Source of the DNA: Natronomonas gomsonensis
GTDB taxonomy: Archaea > Halobacteriota > Halobacteria > Halobacteriales > Haloarculaceae
Assembly: GCF_024300825.1 (NCBI RefSeq)
Contig: NZ_CP101323.1
Location: 3,224,001-3,288,000, forward strand
Length of the DNA stretch: 64,000 nucleotides
Direction: 5' to 3'
The notes beneath the pieces are model-generated. The model was given only the letters and a program-made list of their open reading frames with translations. It ran no database searches and was not told the DNA's origin. This document shows positions 42,021 to 50,814 of this stretch, in pieces (position 1 is the stretch's first letter; each line of letters opens with the position of its first letter). The translations under genes and the position numbers were made by a program.

Positions 42021-43238
42021 ATGTCGCATAGTCCTTCGCTCCCCGACCGGCCGACGTTGGACCTCGACCCCGAGATGTCGGAGTCCGAACGGCTCTCGGC
42101 GCTTCGGGACCACTACATCGACGTCGCACGCGTCCACGACGAACTGTCGGCACAACTGGAGTCCGCACGGTCGCGGCAGTCGGAACTTCGCGAGGAGGTT
42201 TCGGCGCTCCAGGAGGAAAACGAGGCGCTGAAAACCTCCTCGCTGTACATCGCGACGGTCGAGGAACTCACCGACGACCAAGCGTTGCTCAAACAGCACG
42301 GCAACAACCAGGAAGTCCTCACGGACGTTTCGCCGCGGCTGTACGACCGCATCGAGGCCGGCGACCGCGTCGCCATCAACGACTCCTTCGCCATCCAGAC
42401 GCTGTTGGACACCGAGACGGACGCCCGCGCACAGGCGATGGAGATTTCGGAGAAACCGGGCGTCGACTACGAGGACATCGGCGGTCTCGAAAGCCAGATT
42501 CAGGAGGTTCGGGAGGCAGTCGAGGACCCACTCACCAACCCCGAGAAGTTCGAATCCGTCGGCATCGAACCGCCGACCGGCGTCCTGTTGCACGGGCCAC
42601 CGGGCACCGGGAAGACGATGCTGGCGAAGGCCGTCGCCAACCAGACCGACGCCACCTTCATCAAGATGGCCGGCTCCGAGTTGGTCCAGAAGTTCATCGG
42701 CGAGGGCGCACGCCTCGTCCGTGACCTCTTCGAGTTGGCCGCCGAACGCGAACCCGCCATCATCTTCATCGACGAAATCGACGCCATCGCCTCCAAACGG
42801 ACGGAATCGAAGACCTCCGGCGACGCCGAGGTCCAGCGGACGATGATGCAACTGCTCTCCGAGATGGACGGCTTCGACCAGCGCGGCGATATCTCCATCA
42901 TCGCGGCGACGAACCGCTTCGACATGCTCGACCGCGCTATCCTCCGTCCCGGCCGCTTCGACCGCCTCATCGAAGTGCCCGAACCGGACATCGAGGGCCG
43001 CGAACAGATTCTCCGCATCCACACCCAGCGGATGAACCTCGCAGACAGCGTCGACCTCGCGGAACTCGCCGAGGAAACGGAGGGCCTCTCGGGCGCCGAA
43101 CTCGAGAGTCTCGCCACCGAGGCTGGCATGTTCGCCATTCGCGACAACCGTACCGAAGTGGTCGAGGCCGACTTCCTGGAAGCCCTCGATAAGGTTACCC
43201 GCGAGGAATCGCCCGGGAAACCCATTGCGTTCTACTGA
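42021..43238 (+). CDS. pan: Proteasome-activating nucleotidase (PAN)
   Basis: A 405-residue AAA+ ATPase that unfolds proteins for the 20S proteasome. A coiled coil spans about residues 18-75 ([20 protein letters not shown]), followed by an OB region, then the AAA module: Walker [19 protein letters not shown], Walker [17 protein letters not shown] and the second region of homology [18 protein letters not shown]. The C-terminus ends AFY. In the best studied PANs the last three residues form HbYX (hydrophobic-Tyr-any), which docks into the 20S ring; here Tyr is last, so the fit is imperfect. The 405-residue length is normal. Confidence 0.96.
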
Positions 43239-43265: not shown

Positions 43266-43499
43266 CTACCAGTCTATCATTCTCGTCGCGAACCAGTAGA
43301 GTCCGTAGATGCAGGCCGCGACGACGACGAGGGTGATGATGGGGCCTGCAACGTCTCGGGGGAGGCCGAGGGCCATCAGCGCCTCGGTGCCGAAAACGAG
43401 ACTGATCGCGACGAGGAGAGCGGCGCCGACCAGCAGCGCCGAAAACAGCAGGCGGCCGAGTCGAGCGAGCGCGACGTTCCGTATCGCATCGAGAACCAT
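43266..43499 (-). CDS. Small two-helix membrane protein (77 aa)
   Basis: A 77-residue protein MVLDAIRNVALARLGRLLFS with two hydrophobic segments (LLVGAALLVAISLVFG and GPIITLVVVAACIYGLYWFA). The ATG at 43499 is the plausible start; the upstream extension is Arg/Pro-rich and unlikely. It is convergent with PAN and downstream of the PitA-like gene on the same strand. The function is unknown. Confidence 0.65.
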   Translation of the reverse strand: MVLDAIRNVALARLGRLLFSALLVGAALLVAISLVFGTEALMALGLPRDVAGPIITLVVVAACIYGLYWFATRMIDW

Positions 43500-43582
43500 A
43501 CTGCTCGTGCTTCGCACACCGATAAAAAATTCGGGCCTGATTCGCTCGTCGAACCCGAGGAGTTGACGGTTGTTCGGGCGGT

Positions 43583-45826
43583 TCAGGCGAGGAAGACGTG
43601 TCGCGGTCGGCCGTCGAGGACTTCCCGGCCCCACTGGACGGTCTCACGGAAGTCCTCAGAGCGGAAGAAGGCCATGGCGTCGTCCTTCTCGCGCCACTGA
43701 CTCGCGATGAACATGTCGTTCTCGTCGGTTTCGTTGACCATGAGCCGCGTCTCGAAGTGGCCCTCCATGTCGTCGAGGGCGTCGCCGACCTCCTCGAAGG
43801 TGTCGACGAACTCCTCGCGGTACTCCGGTTTGACGGTGTAGAACATCCCCATCGTGCTGAAGCCGCTTTCCTCGCCGGCGCGAGCGACGACGCCGGGCAA
43901 CTCCGAGAGGAACCCGCCGGCGGTGTCGGCGGCCTCCTTGGTGTCCCAGATTGAGACGATAGCGGTTCGGTCGTCACCATGTTCATCGCCGTAGACGGCG
44001 GATTTGACGTGGGTGTCGTAGTGTTCGAACCGCTCCCGGAGGCCGTCGAGTTCCTCGCGGAGTTCCTCGGAGTCGGCCTCGGAGTACAACACCAGGGCAT
44101 AGACGTCTTCGCCGTGCGGTTGTCCGGCGTAGATGTTCAATTCCTCCAGTTCCCCGCGGATGTCGTCGTCCTCGTCGGTACCGTAGGTGTCGGCCTCGTC
44201 GGCGCTGTCGGCCGATTCGTCCCCGAGGGCGGCGCCCACGCCGGGACCGGAACCGGGCAGGTCGGCGAGGAAGCCGGAGGCGGTGTTGGCGGCGCGTTCG
44301 TTGGCCCACAGCGAGACGACGGCGGTGTCCCCCGAATCGGCACGGACGGTCGTGAGGACGTGGGTGTCGTAGTGCTCGAAGTTCCCTCGGAGTCCGTCGA
44401 CCTCGTCGACGAGGTCCTCCGCAGGAGTGTCGGAGTGGAACAGTAAGGCGTAGCCCGCATCAGGGTGTTCCGTCAAATCGATGCCGAAGCGGTGGACGCG
44501 ACGCTGGAACTCCTCGACGTCGACTTCCTCGTGTTCGGGGCCACCGGTGTCGGGACGACCGCCGCCCGAGGAGTCCTGTTCGTCTTCGGAATCGCCCTCG
44601 GAATCGCCCGCAGTGGGCTCTTCGTCGTCGAGCGGCGCCCCGACGCCGCCGGTGACGCCCGGCAGGTCGGCGAGGAAGCCGGAGGCGGTGTTGGCGGCAC
44701 GTTCGTTGGCCCACAGCGAGACGATTGCCACAGAGCCGTCGCTCGTTCGGACTTCGGTGAGGACGTGGGTGTCGTAGTGGTCGAAGTTCCCCCGGAGTTC
44801 GTCGACGGACTCTTCGAGGGTGCCGGCGTCGGCGTCGGATTCGAAGAGGAGGCCGTAGCCCGCGTCCGTTTCGGCTACGTCGACGCCGTAGGTACCGGCC
44901 CTCCGGGTGAACGTGCTGGGGGCGACGACCTCGTGGTCGGCGTCGGTCGAGGGCCGCCCGCCGCTGTCGTCCTCGTCGGTGCTGTGGTCTTCTTCGCTTT
45001 CGGCGTGCGAATTGGCGGACTCTCCGTCGGCGCTGTCGTCGGCCGGGACGGTCTCGCCGGCGAACAGCGCGCCGAGGTCGGACGACGGGAACCGACGGCC
45101 GACGTAGAATGGTCCGAACTCCGCGAACTTCGAGGAGGAGGGGTCGAACCGCATCTCGTACAGCAGGTGTTTGATGTCGGTCATGTCGTCGGCGAACAGC
45201 GTGACGCCCCACTCGTGGTCGTCGAGGCCGACGCTGCCGGTGATTATCTGGGTCACCTTGCCGGCGTACTCCCGTCCGATGTCACCGTGGGCGGACATGT
45301 ACTCCTTGCGCTCCTCGAAGGGGAGGTCGTACCAGTTGTGCTCCGGACCGCGACGCTTGTCCATCGGGTAGAAACAGACGTGTTCGGCGTCCGGAATCTC
45401 CGGGTAGATGCGCTGTTTCATGTAGTTGCGCATCCCCGCGTCCTCGATGTCGTCGAGGCCGTCGGTGAGGTCCTCGTGCATGTACCCCGAAACCTCGGTG
45501 ACGGAGACGTACGAGGAGGCACGTTCGGTGAATTCCGCGAGTGCCGTCGACTCGAAGCGGCGCTCGGCGCGGTCGAGGTGTTCCAGCGTCGGCCGCAGAT
45601 GCAGTATCATGAGGTCGGCCTTGTGACCGACGATAGAGAAGACGGCCGACCCGCCCTCTTCGGCGTCGACCACCGCCTCGTGGTTCTGCAAGTAGTCGAT
45701 GCCCTCTTCGAGCGCCCGCTGTCGGGTCCGTTCGGGTGCCTCGCGCCACGCGTCCCAGTCGATACGGCGGAGGTCGTGGAGCGCGTACCACCCTTCTTCG
45801 GTCCCCGGCGGTCGTCGTCGTACCAT
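43583..45826 (-). CDS. PitA-like heme-binding protein: Cld/HemQ domain, three tandem repeats and an ABM domain
   Basis: A 747-residue protein. Residues about 10-245 are a chlorite-dismutase/HemQ-type heme domain (GWYALHDLRRIDWDAWREAP, SVTEVSGYMHEDLTD, YMSAHGDIGREYAGKVTQII with the likely heme-ligand His, and LLYEMRFDPSSSKFAEFGPF). An acidic linker follows. Then come three related modules of about 95 residues, near 300-395, 435-530 and 555-650, each with LRGNFEHYDTHVLT-type and VSLWANERAANTASGF-type motifs. Finally an antibiotic-biosynthesis-monooxygenase-like fold (GMFYTVKPEYREEFVDTFEE, FIASQWREKDDAMAFFRSED) ends the protein. PitA of Haloferax volcanii is a shorter Cld-ABM fusion, so this one is expanded. 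The heme step it performs, possibly coproheme decarboxylation, is inferred. Confidence 0.85.
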   Translation of the reverse strand: MVRRRPPGTEEGWYALHDLRRIDWDAWREAPERTRQRALEEGIDYLQNHEAVVDAEEGGSAVFSIVGHKADLMILHLRPTLEHLDRAERRFESTALAEFTERASSYVSVTEVSGYMHEDLTDGLDDIEDAGMRNYMKQRIYPEIPDAEHVCFYPMDKRRGPEHNWYDLPFEERKEYMSAHGDIGREYAGKVTQIITGSVGLDDHEWGVTLFADDMTDIKHLLYEMRFDPSSSKFAEFGPFYVGRRFPSSDLGALFAGETVPADDSADGESANSHAESEEDHSTDEDDSGGRPSTDADHEVVAPSTFTRRAGTYGVDVAETDAGYGLLFESDADAGTLEESVDELRGNFDHYDTHVLTEVRTSDGSVAIVSLWANERAANTASGFLADLPGVTGGVGAPLDDEEPTAGDSEGDSEDEQDSSGGGRPDTGGPEHEEVDVEEFQRRVHRFGIDLTEHPDAGYALLFHSDTPAEDLVDEVDGLRGNFEHYDTHVLTTVRADSGDTAVVSLWANERAANTASGFLADLPGSGPGVGAALGDESADSADEADTYGTDEDDDIRGELEELNIYAGQPHGEDVYALVLYSEADSEELREELDGLRERFEHYDTHVKSAVYGDEHGDDRTAIVSIWDTKEAADTAGGFLSELPGVVARAGEESGFSTMGMFYTVKPEYREEFVDTFEEVGDALDDMEGHFETRLMVNETDENDMFIASQWREKDDAMAFFRSEDFRETVQWGREVLDGRPRHVFLA
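44256..44317 (-). repeat. Near-identical 62-base segment, copy in module 2 of the PitA-like gene
   Basis: Bases 44256-44317 match 44661-44722 at 61 of 62 positions. They are 405 bases (135 codons) apart in the same frame and encode SLWANERAANTASGFLADLP in both modules. The one difference is in a third codon position. Confidence 0.9.
44661..44722 (-). repeat. Near-identical 62-base segment, copy in module 1 of the PitA-like gene
   Basis: Partner of the segment at 44256-44317; see there. The high DNA match, far better than between modules 2 and 3, points to recent duplication or gene conversion. Confidence 0.9.
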
Positions 45827-45903
45827 GGACGGACGTTCGGACGGCCGGATAATGGGGCTTTTGAGTCCGGCGAACGGCGAGCGTTCCGGAGCCGTAGTCT
45901 CCC

Positions 45904-46060
45904 CGACTACCTGATATAATACGTTAGATTGGTCTATAAAAGTTCTAAAAGAGTCTCAGGCGGTTTCTAAACAATTCATTTTTGCGGCTGAAACGTCGAG
46001 AACTGAGCGAACGGTGCTGAATTTATCGCAAGGCTCTGGCGTTTATATGGGGGTGGCGGA
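45904..46060. promoter_or_regulatory. AT-rich upstream region of the first DUF7123-type operon
   Basis: About 160 bases of AT-rich DNA between the divergent PitA-like gene and the 83-residue gene. It contains TATAAAAGTTCTAAAAGAG (45936-45954), the 11-mer TGAAACGTCGA (45989-45999) and the TATA box TTTATAT (46042-46048), 45 bases before the ATG at 46087. The same 11-mer, a similar TATAAAACGTCTAAAGG and a TTTATAT box precede the paralogue at 51970. An SD-like GAGG at 46074-46077 fits a leadered message. Confidence 0.6.
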
Positions 46061-46086
46061 CACAGAGAGAAGCGAGGAAAGTCCCT

Positions 46087-46338
46087 ATGTCGAGCGCCAC
46101 CCAATCGAACACCCCCTCCATCACGCCCGGACTCCCGCAGTTGGTGTCCGGCTGCATCGAACGACTCACCACCGGCGTCCGCGCGGCCGCGTTCTGGGCC
46201 GCCGCCCTGCTACCGCTCGTCGTCATCGCTGGGCTGGCGACGGGACTGGCCGGACAACATCCCGAAGCCCTCGCTGGTGCACTGGCACTGAACGCCGCCT
46301 GTGCGGTCGTCGGTCACGGCCACGCTCCCCAACGATGA
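46087..46338 (+). CDS. Small membrane protein coupled to a DUF7123-type gene (83 aa)
   Basis: An 83-residue protein MSSATQSNTPSITPGLPQLV with one long hydrophobic stretch (AAFWAAALLPLVVIAGLATG) and a second weaker one (HPEALAGALALNAACAVVG). It begins after a leader with an SD-like GAGG and ends overlapping the next gene by ATGA (46335-46338). This makes a two-gene operon. The second DUF7123-type gene at 51970 has no such partner. The function is unknown. Confidence 0.65.
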   Translation: MSSATQSNTPSITPGLPQLVSGCIERLTTGVRAAAFWAAALLPLVVIAGLATGLAGQHPEALAGALALNAACAVVGHGHAPQR

Positions 46339-46589
46339 GTACGAACGCCTCCACCCAATCGGCGTATCGCTCCCGGAAAGCGAAGCGACTCGTCGAGTAC
46401 CTCCGTGCGGAGGCCGAACGCAACGACGGCGACCTCTACATCAAAGGGAAATTCATCGCCGACGACGTGGACCTCTCCCCGAAGGAAATCGGCGCGCTGT
46501 TGTCGAACCTCCAGGGGTCGGTCCACGGACTCACAATCGAGAAGTGGTCCTACACCTCCGCGACCACGTGGCGAATCTCCTCGGCCTGA
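46335..46589 (+). CDS. DUF7123-type small protein, copy 1 (84 aa)
   Basis: An 84-residue basic/acidic protein: SRKAKRLVEYLRAEAERNDG, DLYIKGKFIADDVDLSPKEI, GALLSNLQGSVHGLTIEKWS, YTSATTWRISSA. The pattern helix, beta-strand, then DLSPKEIGALL resembles a winged-helix core in which SPKEIG starts the recognition part. I recall this as the haloarchaeal family DUF7123. It is paralogous to 51970-52209: the C-terminal EKWSYTSATTWR is identical, with 38 identical bases. A DNA-binding or regulatory role is inferred from shape only. Confidence 0.8.
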   Translation: MSTNASTQSAYRSRKAKRLVEYLRAEAERNDGDLYIKGKFIADDVDLSPKEIGALLSNLQGSVHGLTIEKWSYTSATTWRISSA

Positions 46590-46628: not shown

Positions 46629-48410
46629 CTACCCCAGTAGCTGCGGCACGAACAGCATCCCGAGGAGGCTGAGTATCATCGAGGCGCTGATGGCGACGGT
46701 CACCGCCGTCGCCACGGCCGGGTCCGGTTCGATCGGCAGTCGCGCTATCGTCGCCTCGACCGCCGACCGAAGGATGTGCCCGCCGTCGAGCGGATACGAC
46801 GGGATGCAGTTGAAGATGCCGAGGTTCAGATTGACCCAGCCGGTCCAGAACAGCACGTTGATGAGTCCGAAGACGACGCCGGCGCTGAGCGGACCGGACA
46901 CCGAATAGAAGTTCGAGATCTCGCCGTTGAACCCCGCGAAATTGTACGCGAGGTTGGGGTCGACGACGCTGGCGAACGGCAAGACGAGCACCGCAAAGGT
47001 TCGGGAGATGAACGTCGAGACAGGGTCGTCGCCCCAGCCGCTGCCCCCGAGGAGGGCGTGATACTGCGAGGCCGGGTAGGTGTCGATACCGAAGTCGTCG
47101 ACGACGATGCCGCTCGTGCCCTGCTGGATGCCACCGACGCCGAGGTAACCGTATTCGCCTTGTGAATTCTCCCCAAGCGTCACCTCGTAGACGTGGCGCT
47201 CGCCGCTCCAGGGGTCGTCGCCGTCGCCGTGGTAGGCGACGACTTCGACGGTGTCGCCGGGTTCGGTCTCCTGAAGCACCGTCGAGAGCGCCTCGGGTGT
47301 CGGCGTCGGTTCGCCGGCGACGCTGTGGACGAGCATCGGCCGGTCGGGCGCTCCGCCATCGGCCCCCAATGGGTCGTCGGCGGGGACCGCACTGACGAAG
47401 ACGCCGACCGGGAACTGTGTCGTCCCCTCGTCGGTGTCCAACTCGACGACCTCGTTGCCGGAGACGGCGGCTTCGAACTCCGATTGGGTGTACACCGGTT
47501 CGCCGTCGACGGCTTCGATGGTGGTCTCGGTTCCGAACGGTGCGTCGACGACCGCACGGGTGACCATCAGGCGGCGCTGGACGGTGACGGTCTCGCCGTT
47601 TCGCAACTCGACGGTCACCTCCCGATCGGCCTCGGCGAGGGCCGCGTCGAAGGATGCTTGGTCCTCGACGGGTTGGCCGTCGACGGCAGTAATCACGTCG
47701 CCGCGGTCGATACCGGGGTCGCCGGCATCGCTAGCCGGCGACCCCGGTAGCGTTCCGCCGATTGCGACACCTGGAACGACGGTAACGAGACTGGCGACGA
47801 GGCCGAACAGCAGCGCGAACGTAATCGCGGTGACGAGGAAGTTGTTCGTCACGCCGGCGGCGAACATCCGCGTCTTGCCGCCGCGGTCGGCCGACCGCTG
47901 GCTCTCTTCGTCGGGTTGGACGAAGGCACCGAGCGGGATGAACGCCAGCAGGGCGACGCCCATCGACTCGATTTCGATGTCCTCGACGCGACACAGAAGC
48001 CCGTGGCCCCCTTCGTGGACGACGAGCCCCACGAGCAGGCCGACGAGGATGTCAACGGCGGCGGCCCACGGGAGGAACTGATTGACGCCCGGGATGACGA
48101 GGGCGTCTTGGGGACGGGCGATGCGGGCGGCTTCGGGTGAGGTTATCGCACTGAACGCCGAGAACAGCACGGCGACGAACGACCCGACCATGATGACGAC
48201 GGCGATGCCGACGCCGAGGTTGCCCCACGCGCGCCAGAATCGCTTGGGTTTGGCGAGCCACTCGAGGGCGGCCCGCCCGCGTTTCGTGTGGATGGTGAGA
48301 ATCGGCCCCGACACCCGGAACGACGACGGCAACACTCCGCGGGCGTTCAGCGCCATCGCTACCGAGGTGTAGATGAGAACCCCGACCAGTATCCACAGCA
48401 GCGTGTTCAT
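46629..48410 (-). CDS. Site-2 protease family protein with two PDZ-like domains
   Basis: A 593-residue membrane metalloprotease of family M50. The zinc site is VGLVVHEGGHGLLCRVEDIE (HExxH) in the TM region near residue 135, and the third ligand is in NLGIFNCIPSYPLDGGHILR (PLDGGH). Between them lie PDZ-like domains (PGIDRGDVITAVDGQPVEDQ and VLVHSVAGEP-like segments). The start MNTLLWILVGVLIYTSVAMA at 48410 gives a proper first TM helix; the extension to 48476 is not credible. It follows lysS by 84 bases on the same strand. Its substrate is unknown; site-2 proteases cut regulatory membrane proteins. Confidence 0.92.
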   Translation of the reverse strand: MNTLLWILVGVLIYTSVAMALNARGVLPSSFRVSGPILTIHTKRGRAALEWLAKPKRFWRAWGNLGVGIAVVIMVGSFVAVLFSAFSAITSPEAARIARPQDALVIPGVNQFLPWAAAVDILVGLLVGLVVHEGGHGLLCRVEDIEIESMGVALLAFIPLGAFVQPDEESQRSADRGGKTRMFAAGVTNNFLVTAITFALLFGLVASLVTVVPGVAIGGTLPGSPASDAGDPGIDRGDVITAVDGQPVEDQASFDAALAEADREVTVELRNGETVTVQRRLMVTRAVVDAPFGTETTIEAVDGEPVYTQSEFEAAVSGNEVVELDTDEGTTQFPVGVFVSAVPADDPLGADGGAPDRPMLVHSVAGEPTPTPEALSTVLQETEPGDTVEVVAYHGDGDDPWSGERHVYEVTLGENSQGEYGYLGVGGIQQGTSGIVVDDFGIDTYPASQYHALLGGSGWGDDPVSTFISRTFAVLVLPFASVVDPNLAYNFAGFNGEISNFYSVSGPLSAGVVFGLINVLFWTGWVNLNLGIFNCIPSYPLDGGHILRSAVEATIARLPIEPDPAVATAVTVAISASMILSLLGMLFVPQLLG

Positions 48411-48494
48411 TACAGTTCCGTAGGGGCTCCGTGGTTCAAAAACCCGACCTTTCGGACACTCGTAAGGCGGTCCCACCGTTCGTGTCGAGGTCGG

Positions 48495-50135
48495 CTAGGC
48501 TTCCCGGCGGAGCCGTCGCGTCACGAACTCCTCGTCCATCGGCGCGAGGAACGGTCCGAGACGTGGCCCCTGTGATTCGTCGAGGAACAGCCGGTAGCCG
48601 GCCTCGAAGAAGTCTCCGACGGCAACGTCGTTTCGCTTTGCGGTTTCGTAAATCTCCCCCTGTAGCGAATCCGCGTCGGGGGATTCCGCCTCGATGAAGT
48701 CGGCGAGGTCGTCGAGTGCGGCCCCGACGCCGCCGTCGAACTCGACCTCGGGGAGGTCCTCGGCCAGTCGGTAGTTGAACTCGTTGTCGGTGCGTTCGGC
48801 CCACGCACGGGCTTTCTCGACGCGTGCGAGTGCGGCTTCGAGTTCGGCGTCGGTGGCGTCGGCCGGCAGATGTCCCGACCGGCGGGCCATCTGAACCCGG
48901 AGGTCGCGGTTGTCCGTCATCCCGAGGACGGCCGCGAACGTGTAGGGGATGCGGACGGGCGGGGTTTCGCCAACCTCGTCGACGACCATCGGGTAGGCGC
49001 GGTCGGCGCGTTCCCGTTCGTCCTCGTCTGCGTCGTCGGTGGTGCCGTAGTAGACGCGCTCGAAGCGGTCGAACTCCTCGACAAGTCGGTCGATATTGTC
49101 GACGTTGAAGTCACGCTGTTTCTTCGGGTTCTTCGTGAAGAAGTAGCGCAACACCGGCACCTCAAGCAGTTCGAGCACCTCCTCGACGGTGATGATGTTG
49201 CCGGCCGACGACGATAGCGCGTCGCCGTTCAGCGTGAACCACTCGTACACCATCGGAACGGGCGGCTCGAATTCGAACACCTCGCGAGCGACGGTCTCCC
49301 CGGAGGGCCACGACCCCTCGGCGTGGTCCTTCCCGAACGGCTCGAAATCCACTCCCAGCGTGAGCCACTGGGCGGGCCACTCGAAGCGCCACGGGAGTTT
49401 CCCCTCCCGGAAGGTGGCCGTTCCCTCGTGGCCACAGCCCTCTATCGTGTCGTCGCCGGCCTGTACGTCTTCACAGACGTAGTCGACGGTTTCGGCTTCG
49501 AGGTCGATTCCGGTGATTGTCTCGGTGAGGTTGCCACACTCCGAACACTGCGCGAAGAAGGGGACGTAGGAGTCGTCGACCTTGTCCTGGAACTCGCCCA
49601 ACACCTCGCGTGCCCGGTCGCGGTGTTCGAGGACGTGCCGGACGGCGTCGTCGAACTCGCCCGATTCGTAGAGGTCGGTGTTGGAGACCACGTCGATGGG
49701 GACGCCGACGGCCTCGGCGGAGCGGGAGAGGAGTTCGGTGAAGTGGGCGCCGTAGGAGTCACAGCAGCCGAAGGGGTCGGGGATGTCGGTGTAGGGCTTT
49801 CCGAGGTTGCGGCCGAGTGCGCCGGCGTCGACCTCGCCCAGTCCGACGACGTTCCACTCGAGGTCCGCGAGCTTTCGGGGGAGTTTCCGGAGGCGGTCCT
49901 TGTCGTCGGTGGTGAACACCTGCCGGACCTCGTGGCCGCGTTCCCGGAGGGCCTCGGCGACGAAGTACCCGCGCATGATTTCGTTGAAGTGGCCGAGATG
50001 TGGGACGCCGGAGGGAGAGACGCCACCTTTGACGATGATGGGCTCTTCGGGGTCGCGGGCCTCTATCTCGTCGGCGACTGCGTCGGCCCAGAAGGCCCGC
50101 TGTCGGCCGGTTCCGATGTCGTAGAGGTCACTCAT
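48495..50135 (-). CDS. lysS: Lysyl-tRNA synthetase, class I
   Basis: A 546-residue class I LysRS, the Rossmann-fold type found in many archaea in place of class II. The HIGH motif appears as SPSGVPHLGHFNE and the KMSKS equivalent as GDALSSSAGN. Zinc-type Cys motifs are FFAQCSECGNLTE and CEDVQAGDDTIEGCGHEG. The start MSDLYDIGTGRQRAFWADAV at 50135 overlaps the end of pyrH by 8 bases, so the two are in one transcript, and the site-2 protease follows. Confidence 0.96.
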   Translation of the reverse strand: MSDLYDIGTGRQRAFWADAVADEIEARDPEEPIIVKGGVSPSGVPHLGHFNEIMRGYFVAEALRERGHEVRQVFTTDDKDRLRKLPRKLADLEWNVVGLGEVDAGALGRNLGKPYTDIPDPFGCCDSYGAHFTELLSRSAEAVGVPIDVVSNTDLYESGEFDDAVRHVLEHRDRAREVLGEFQDKVDDSYVPFFAQCSECGNLTETITGIDLEAETVDYVCEDVQAGDDTIEGCGHEGTATFREGKLPWRFEWPAQWLTLGVDFEPFGKDHAEGSWPSGETVAREVFEFEPPVPMVYEWFTLNGDALSSSAGNIITVEEVLELLEVPVLRYFFTKNPKKQRDFNVDNIDRLVEEFDRFERVYYGTTDDADEDERERADRAYPMVVDEVGETPPVRIPYTFAAVLGMTDNRDLRVQMARRSGHLPADATDAELEAALARVEKARAWAERTDNEFNYRLAEDLPEVEFDGGVGAALDDLADFIEAESPDADSLQGEIYETAKRNDVAVGDFFEAGYRLFLDESQGPRLGPFLAPMDEEFVTRRLRREA

Positions 50136-50814
50136 TCGGGACGACCTCGGTGCCGTCGAAGGCGTCACCGGCGACGGCGTCGGCGATTCGGTCGGGGTCG
50201 GTTCCGTCGAGAACGACGGCTCTGAGCCCCGAACGCTCGATGATTTTCGCGGCGAGTAAGTCGACCGGCGCGTTCGACCCGGCGGCGGTCTCGATACTGG
50301 AGATGACGTCGACGAGTTCGCTTGCAGTCAGGCGGTCGTAGCGTTCGGCGTCGTCGACCTCCTTCGGGTCAGCCGAGAAGACGCCCGGAACGCTCGTCGC
50401 GTAGATGAGCAGGTCGGCGTCCACCATCTCCGCCAACAGCGCCGAGACGGCGTCGGTCGTGTGGCCGGGAACTGTCCCGCCCATGACCGCGACTTCGCCG
50501 CGTCGAAGGGAGGCGCGGGCGGCTTCGTGGGATTCGGCGGGTTCGGGAGTCGCCGAACTGTCGAGGGCCGTGACGAGCAGTCGCGCGTTCAACCGGGTCA
50601 CGTCGATGCCGAGGGCGTCGAGGTCGTACTCCGAGGCTCCGAGTTCGCGGGCGGTACCGATGTAGCGCCGTGCGACGCCCCCACCGCCGACGACGGTTGC
50701 GACCTCGTGTCCGTCCTCGACGAGCCCGTCGATGACGGTGGCGTGGCCTCGGACCCGCTCGGGGTCGAGGTCGGGTGCGAGTACGCTCCCGCCGATAGAA
50801 ACGACGATTCTCAT
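50128..50814 (-). CDS. pyrH: UMP kinase (archaeal type)
   Basis: A 228-residue amino-acid-kinase-fold enzyme phosphorylating UMP to UDP. It begins MRIVVSIGGSVLAPDLDPER with the phosphate-binding GGS, then ATVVGGGGVARRYIGTAREL and VMGGTVPGHTTDAVSALLAE. Archaeal UMP kinases are this length. It overlaps lysS by 8 bases. It is divergent from the molybdopterin synthase gene. Confidence 0.95.
   Translation of the reverse strand: MRIVVSIGGSVLAPDLDPERVRGHATVIDGLVEDGHEVATVVGGGGVARRYIGTARELGASEYDLDALGIDVTRLNARLLVTALDSSATPEPAESHEAARASLRRGEVAVMGGTVPGHTTDAVSALLAEMVDADLLIYATSVPGVFSADPKEVDDAERYDRLTASELVDVISSIETAAGSNAPVDLLAAKIIERSGLRAVVLDGTDPDRIADAVAGDAFDGTEVVPNE

Follow-up and report, generated by a model that had tools for sequence, protein, structure and literature searches.

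Three-module PitA/ChdC of Natronomonas, a genus-restricted variant of a known haloarchaeal protein

The window analysed here, a stretch of 64,000 nucleotides of Natronomonas gomsonensis (contig NZ_CP101323.1), contains an open reading frame with an ATG start encoding 747 amino acids. In an initial annotation made from the letters alone, the product was read as an expanded PitA, in which three additional tandem modules separate a chlorite-dismutase-type (Cld) domain from a monooxygenase-like (ABM) domain. The locus raises the question of whether these modules are an addition to PitA, how they arose, and what they may contribute beside the enzyme domain.

The open reading frame was matched over its full length by the NCBIfam PitA equivalog NF007124 with 1099.7 bits (cut-off 446), and a ChdC domain, at least one module of the M3 type and a C-terminal ABM domain were found in one chain. 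A module HMM, seeded with the three modules of the 747-aa protein and iterated over PitA homologues, detected exactly three modules (E 3e-33 to 4e-41). Judged by its sequence, the protein is PitA/ChdC, composed of a coproheme decarboxylase domain, three modules of ~92 residues and a C-terminal ABM domain (Table 1). The three inter-domain linkers contained 33-35% Asp+Glu. The PitA identity, the three tandem modules in 747 residues and the acidic linkers had all been recognised in the initial annotation. A whole-genome scan with the module profile gave three matches, all inside the pitA gene, and no module copy elsewhere in the genome. An assembly artefact, considered a possible source of the repeats, was ruled out by the recurrence of the three-module layout in 11 other assemblies, including those of Natronomonas sp. 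CBA1123 (97% identical) and N. gomsonensis (94-95%). An antisense open reading frame of 484 aa (44465-45919, plus strand) had no Pfam match and was regarded as a side effect of GC-rich coding. None of the neighbouring genes hints at another function for pitA.

Table 1. Features of the pitA locus and its neighbours; positions are those of the window.
Feature	Position	Strand	Evidence or remark
Proteasome-type AAA ATPase	42021-43238	+	neighbour
Small membrane protein	43266-43634	-	neighbour; read by eye, no Pfam match
pitA/chdC open reading frame, three-module form, 747 aa	43583-45826	-	NCBIfam NF007124 match
C-terminal ABM domain, residues 655-747; His690	43586-43864	-	Pfam PF03992, 8.7e-14
Module M3, residues 555-645; YAGQPHGEDV motif, His606, Trp627	43892-44164	-	tree node 100/100
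Linker 3, 29 residues, 34% Asp+Glu	44165-44251	-	composition
Module M2, residues 434-525; His489, Trp507	44252-44527	-	module HMM, tree, AlphaFold2
Last 22 codons of M2, homogenised with M1	44252-44317	-	identity comparison
Linker 2, 43 residues, 33% Asp+Glu	44528-44656	-	composition
Module M1, residues 299-390; His354, Trp372	44657-44932	-	module HMM, tree, AlphaFold2
Last 22 codons of M1, homogenised with M2	44657-44722	-	identity comparison
Linker 1, 43 residues, 35% Asp+Glu, 3 His	44933-45061	-	composition
ChdC (coproheme decarboxylase / Cld-superfamily) domain, residues 1-255	45062-45826	-	Pfam PF06778, 9.6e-67
DUF7123 protein	46014-46589	+	neighbour
M50 protease	46629-48476	-	neighbour
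Class I lysyl-tRNA synthetase-type gene	48495-50168	-	neighbour

The N-terminal domain matched the ChdC proteins of Geobacillus (7e-75) and Listeria (3e-70). It was aligned with the structures 1t0t, 4wws and 5loq. Tyr153, His180 and Gln193 were conserved in the alignment with Listeria and Geobacillus ChdC, at positions which we take to be those of the catalytic Tyr, the proximal His and the distal Gln of Listeria ChdC. The distal Arg of functional chlorite dismutases was absent and Gln193 stood at the aligned position, which completes the set of residues by which ChdC is recognised (catalytic Tyr, proximal His, and Gln where chlorite dismutase has its distal Arg). The domain is predicted to convert coproheme to protoheme. 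For this putative activity of ChdC/PitA the support is genetic and comes from the H. volcanii homologue, where deletion of pitA lowers aerobic growth and heme rescues it (PMC5746218).

H. volcanii PitA/ChdC (HVO_1871) belongs to the same N-terminal family and likewise joins a ChdC domain, through a linker, to an M3-type module and an ABM domain within a single chain. Its ChdC part multimerises, the whole protein contains 0.83 protoheme per subunit, and protoheme is carried by a 20-kDa fragment starting with AGKPH at residue 322 (PMC5746218). This start falls inside the YAGxPHGEDV motif of M3, so that the fragment, described as a '200-residue ABM-like domain', corresponds to M3 plus ABM; M3 makes up the greater part of the N-terminal half of this fragment, for which heme binding is proven. 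The H. volcanii protein differs in length (501 aa), in having one module instead of three (by fragment mapping and by its one-module relatives), and in its His-rich linker, whereas the acidic first linker of Natronomonas holds three His in 43 residues. The median number of linker His was nine in one-module forms and four in two-module forms; on these counts a His-rich linker marks only a subset of the PitA family.

Modules were counted in 159 distinct PitA proteins that were complete or nearly complete. One module was present in 45 proteins (486-544 aa), two in 102 (574-707 aa) and three in 12 (724-919 aa), and every PitA with counted modules carried at least one. The initial annotation had started from a PitA consisting of a Cld-type domain and one monooxygenase-like domain, to which three modules had been added; this baseline was wrong, M3 being the module of the ordinary one-module PitA of ~500 aa. 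The second module occurs in most Haloarculaceae and in some other families. The two-module forms of Haloarcula, Halosimplex and Halorientalis (NF007124, 637 positions) have the same domain order as the Natronomonas protein with one module fewer, and their N-terminal module is a relative of both M1 and M2. Since most Haloarculaceae already have two modules and M3 is universal, the count indicates that Natronomonas PitA has one extra module, not three.

All 12 three-module proteins were from Natronomonas. Of the 19 Natronomonas genomes with a countable gene, 12 had the three-module and seven the two-module form; genome G009 held a fragment only. The class was surveyed with 391 genomes from 86 genera, each at least 80% complete. 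At least one module match was found in 389 of them, and no three-module PitA was found outside Natronomonas. The only genomes outside the genus with three or more module matches (G051 and G095) had them split between two separate genes. The architecture had been called unusual, on the understanding that other haloarchaeal PitA proteins do not commonly have three modules. This is correct outside the genus and incorrect within it, and the architecture is less unusual than stated while still genus-restricted. The three-module PitA is thus no novel type of enzyme; it is a known protein in a real, well-conserved form restricted to Natronomonas. No description of a multi-module PitA was found in the literature searched, the original PitA paper (Bioinformatics 2006, 22:671) lying outside that search.

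Several genomes of the survey deviated from the common pattern. Genome G141, from the same order and 99% complete, had no PitA or module match, against nearly every other haloarchaeon. A Natronomonas MAG (G004) contained on contig C24 a second, one-module PitA (L034), which grouped with proteins of family f4 and is probably a contaminating contig or a transfer. Two MAG proteins, L163 of QS_1_69_70 (919 aa) and L204 of QH_7_69_31 (905 aa), are three-module PitAs whose extra length consists of long low-complexity linkers, including TDEDTDEATADS-type repeats. The second PitA-like gene of G095 (L225:705-2129, plus strand) encodes a ChdC domain and one diverged module, with a C-terminus that lacks the usual ABM ending. 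On contig C5 of G051, a gene (L224:506-1753, minus strand) encodes a protein of 415 aa that combines two PitA-type modules, both of which keep the YDSH His, with a blue-copper domain at the C-terminus (PF00127, 8e-12); it has a Tat-like signal and a lipobox and lacks ChdC and ABM. This protein type was present in one of 18 genomes of the genus of G051. The PitA-type module therefore also occurs outside PitA, in a protein that appears to be exported.

In a tree of 108 modules, M3 fell together with the only module of one-module PitAs and with the last one of two-module PitAs (100/100). M1 and M2 were placed among the N-terminal modules as two separate clades of 12 members each, with moderate supports (86/74 and 89/82). 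According to this tree M3 is the orthologue of the universal, ancestral module, and M1 and M2 are the duplicates. The reverse had been assumed, M3 having been taken for a more diverged copy. The separation of M1 and M2 into two clades, each spanning the 12 species, places their duplication before the split of these species. A recent duplication of the whole module, as first suggested, was ruled out by the tree, and high nucleotide identity between M1 and M2 was confined to their last 22 codons. M1 and M2 would have arisen when an ancestor with two modules duplicated its N-terminal one, prior to the divergence of the three-module species. The three-module proteins were not one clade in the ChdC tree, where the three-module label required three changes on the tree found, and one origin is also compatible with the data.

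The near-identical tract noted at the outset (44661-44722 and 44256-44317; 62 bases, one mismatch, 405 bases apart) was found exactly as described. It belongs to wider repeat families, a 119-nt unit and a 67-nt unit with three copies each and spacings of 405 and 351-360. In the last 22 codons, M1-M2 identity was 0.835 within genomes and 0.793 after shuffling between genomes, and none of 20,000 shuffles was as high. This test counts related genomes as independent; the result held with nine distinct lineages (0.818 vs 0.779 shuffled), and with four lineages p was 0.04, the lowest attainable value there being 1/24. Upstream of the tail there was no identity excess (0.635 vs 0.633 shuffled, p 0.33), and the tails of M1 and M3 (p 0.28) and of M2 and M3 (p 0.84) showed no within-genome excess. 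In two-module proteins a slight within-genome excess between the two modules (0.667 vs 0.649) may come from shared codon usage.

Purifying selection on the same peptide combined with codon bias could produce such a tract without gene conversion, since GC3 is high (0.85-0.98) and the same codons are favoured everywhere. This explanation has little probability. Identical residues of the M1 and M2 tails shared identical codons more often within than between genomes (0.748 vs 0.664), with no clear excess upstream (0.703 vs 0.687, p 0.12); the M1-M3 and M2-M3 tails showed no excess; and species-specific codons were common to both copies, e.g. in L010 (GCG and TTT) and in L006. The within-genome homogenisation fits local gene conversion. 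Gene conversion had been offered as one of two explanations for the likeness of M1 and M2, and it is supported for the last 22 codons only, which would be kept alike by recurrent intragenic events.

AlphaFold2 predicted each module with high confidence as ferredoxin-like (mean pLDDT 82.7 overall, pTM 0.48), and all modules are predicted to be ABM-like ferredoxin folds. Foldseek searches with the predicted structure matched single domains to ABM proteins, including 4dpo, 2omo, 3qmq and HmoB (4jou), at 1.1-2.9 Å rmsd and target TM 0.72-0.81, the matches being assigned to single domains without naming which of the four each covers; with the M1-M2 model, single ABM matches were looser (4.1-6.1 Å). 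HmoB binds heme by its ABM-fold domain. Unlike the ABM family, the Natronomonas modules are tethered to a ChdC domain and fall below the Pfam cut-off: none of M1-M3 matched PF03992 above it (best module E 0.12), and the module-to-ABM profile match was weak (hhalign probability 36%). Assignment to another known family (DAPDH_C, Imm7, TraF_2 and others) was rejected, the Pfam matches being weak and inconsistent between members.

In each of the four domains, strand 2 starts with an invariant His (354, 489, 606, 690) and strand 3 ends with an invariant Trp (372, 507, 627, 711). The PHGEDV motif was specific to M3-type modules. His690, the 58th residue from the C-terminus, keeps the position of H. 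volcanii His444, for which Kosugi and colleagues suggested a role as heme ligand (PMC5746218). By the residue offsets of heme-oxygenase profile matches, we infer that this His falls elsewhere than the proximal His of IsdG, and its ligand role is putative. Values of dN/dS were 0.12-0.66 in M1-M3 and 0.37-1.12 in the linkers, M1 being the least constrained module (0.24-0.66).

From these data we favour, with moderate confidence, a PitA in which the ChdC domain makes heme, M3+ABM holds the product, M1 and M2 extend the heme-accepting region, and the M1 and M2 tails undergo gene conversion. The ChdC domain, by homology, would convert coproheme to protoheme; the M3+ABM unit would take up and hold the product heme, as the biochemistry of H. 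volcanii PitA has shown for that protein; and M1 and M2 are retained, constrained domains of predicted ferredoxin-like fold. That these two enlarge the tethered region by which the ChdC ring passes on its heme, as acceptors or as hand-on sites, is probable at a lower level of confidence. Heme binding by the modules is a candidate property, drawn from the M3+ABM fragment of the homologue.

M1 and M2 could instead be non-heme domains, spacers or docking units that hold M3+ABM off the ChdC ring or bind partners. We consider this possible but doubtful. It agrees with the heme content of a one-module PitA, about one per subunit, with the restriction of PHGEDV to M3-type modules and with the long, acidic and variable linkers; the His at the start of strand 2 and the Trp at the end of strand 3, invariant in all module classes, are more than a spacer needs. 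It is also conceivable, and in our view unlikely, that module number sets the hemes per subunit and that Natronomonas PitA is a tethered multi-heme carrier whose module end is kept by gene conversion. Each added module would then be an extra heme site next to the heme-making enzyme. Against an extra heme per module stands the H. volcanii protein, which with one module already holds about one heme per subunit, so that extra modules need not add heme.

A neutral size polymorphism, in which a repetitive gene acquired a third module by tandem duplication and conversion without functional gain, appears improbable. The family does contain one-, two- and three-module forms, the number varies even inside Natronomonas, and M1 is the least constrained module, but 12 species have kept M1 and M2, and compared with the adjoining linkers both modules are under purifying selection. 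Equally improbable is a pairing of M1 and M2 in one chain into a second ferredoxin-like barrel with a second heme site beside M3+ABM: ChdC, DyP and ABM proteins do build barrels from two ferredoxin-like domains, and over its whole length the M1-M2 model was best matched in fold by the ChdC-family structures 1vdh and 4wws, but these matches were at rmsd 17-18 Å, the pair alone gave a pTM of 0.47 without confident packing or a fixed relative placement, and the barrel was rejected, no defined geometry being obtained from AlphaFold2 and Foldseek.

The analysis corrects the domain picture of PitA, whose literature domain of 200 residues is two domains, the first belonging to the module family. The homogenised tails of M1 and M2 are a small but clear example of intragenic gene conversion, for which the gene itself supplies the controls. 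The natural series of one-, two- and three-module proteins makes testable the proposal that the C-terminal part of PitA stores and protects new heme.
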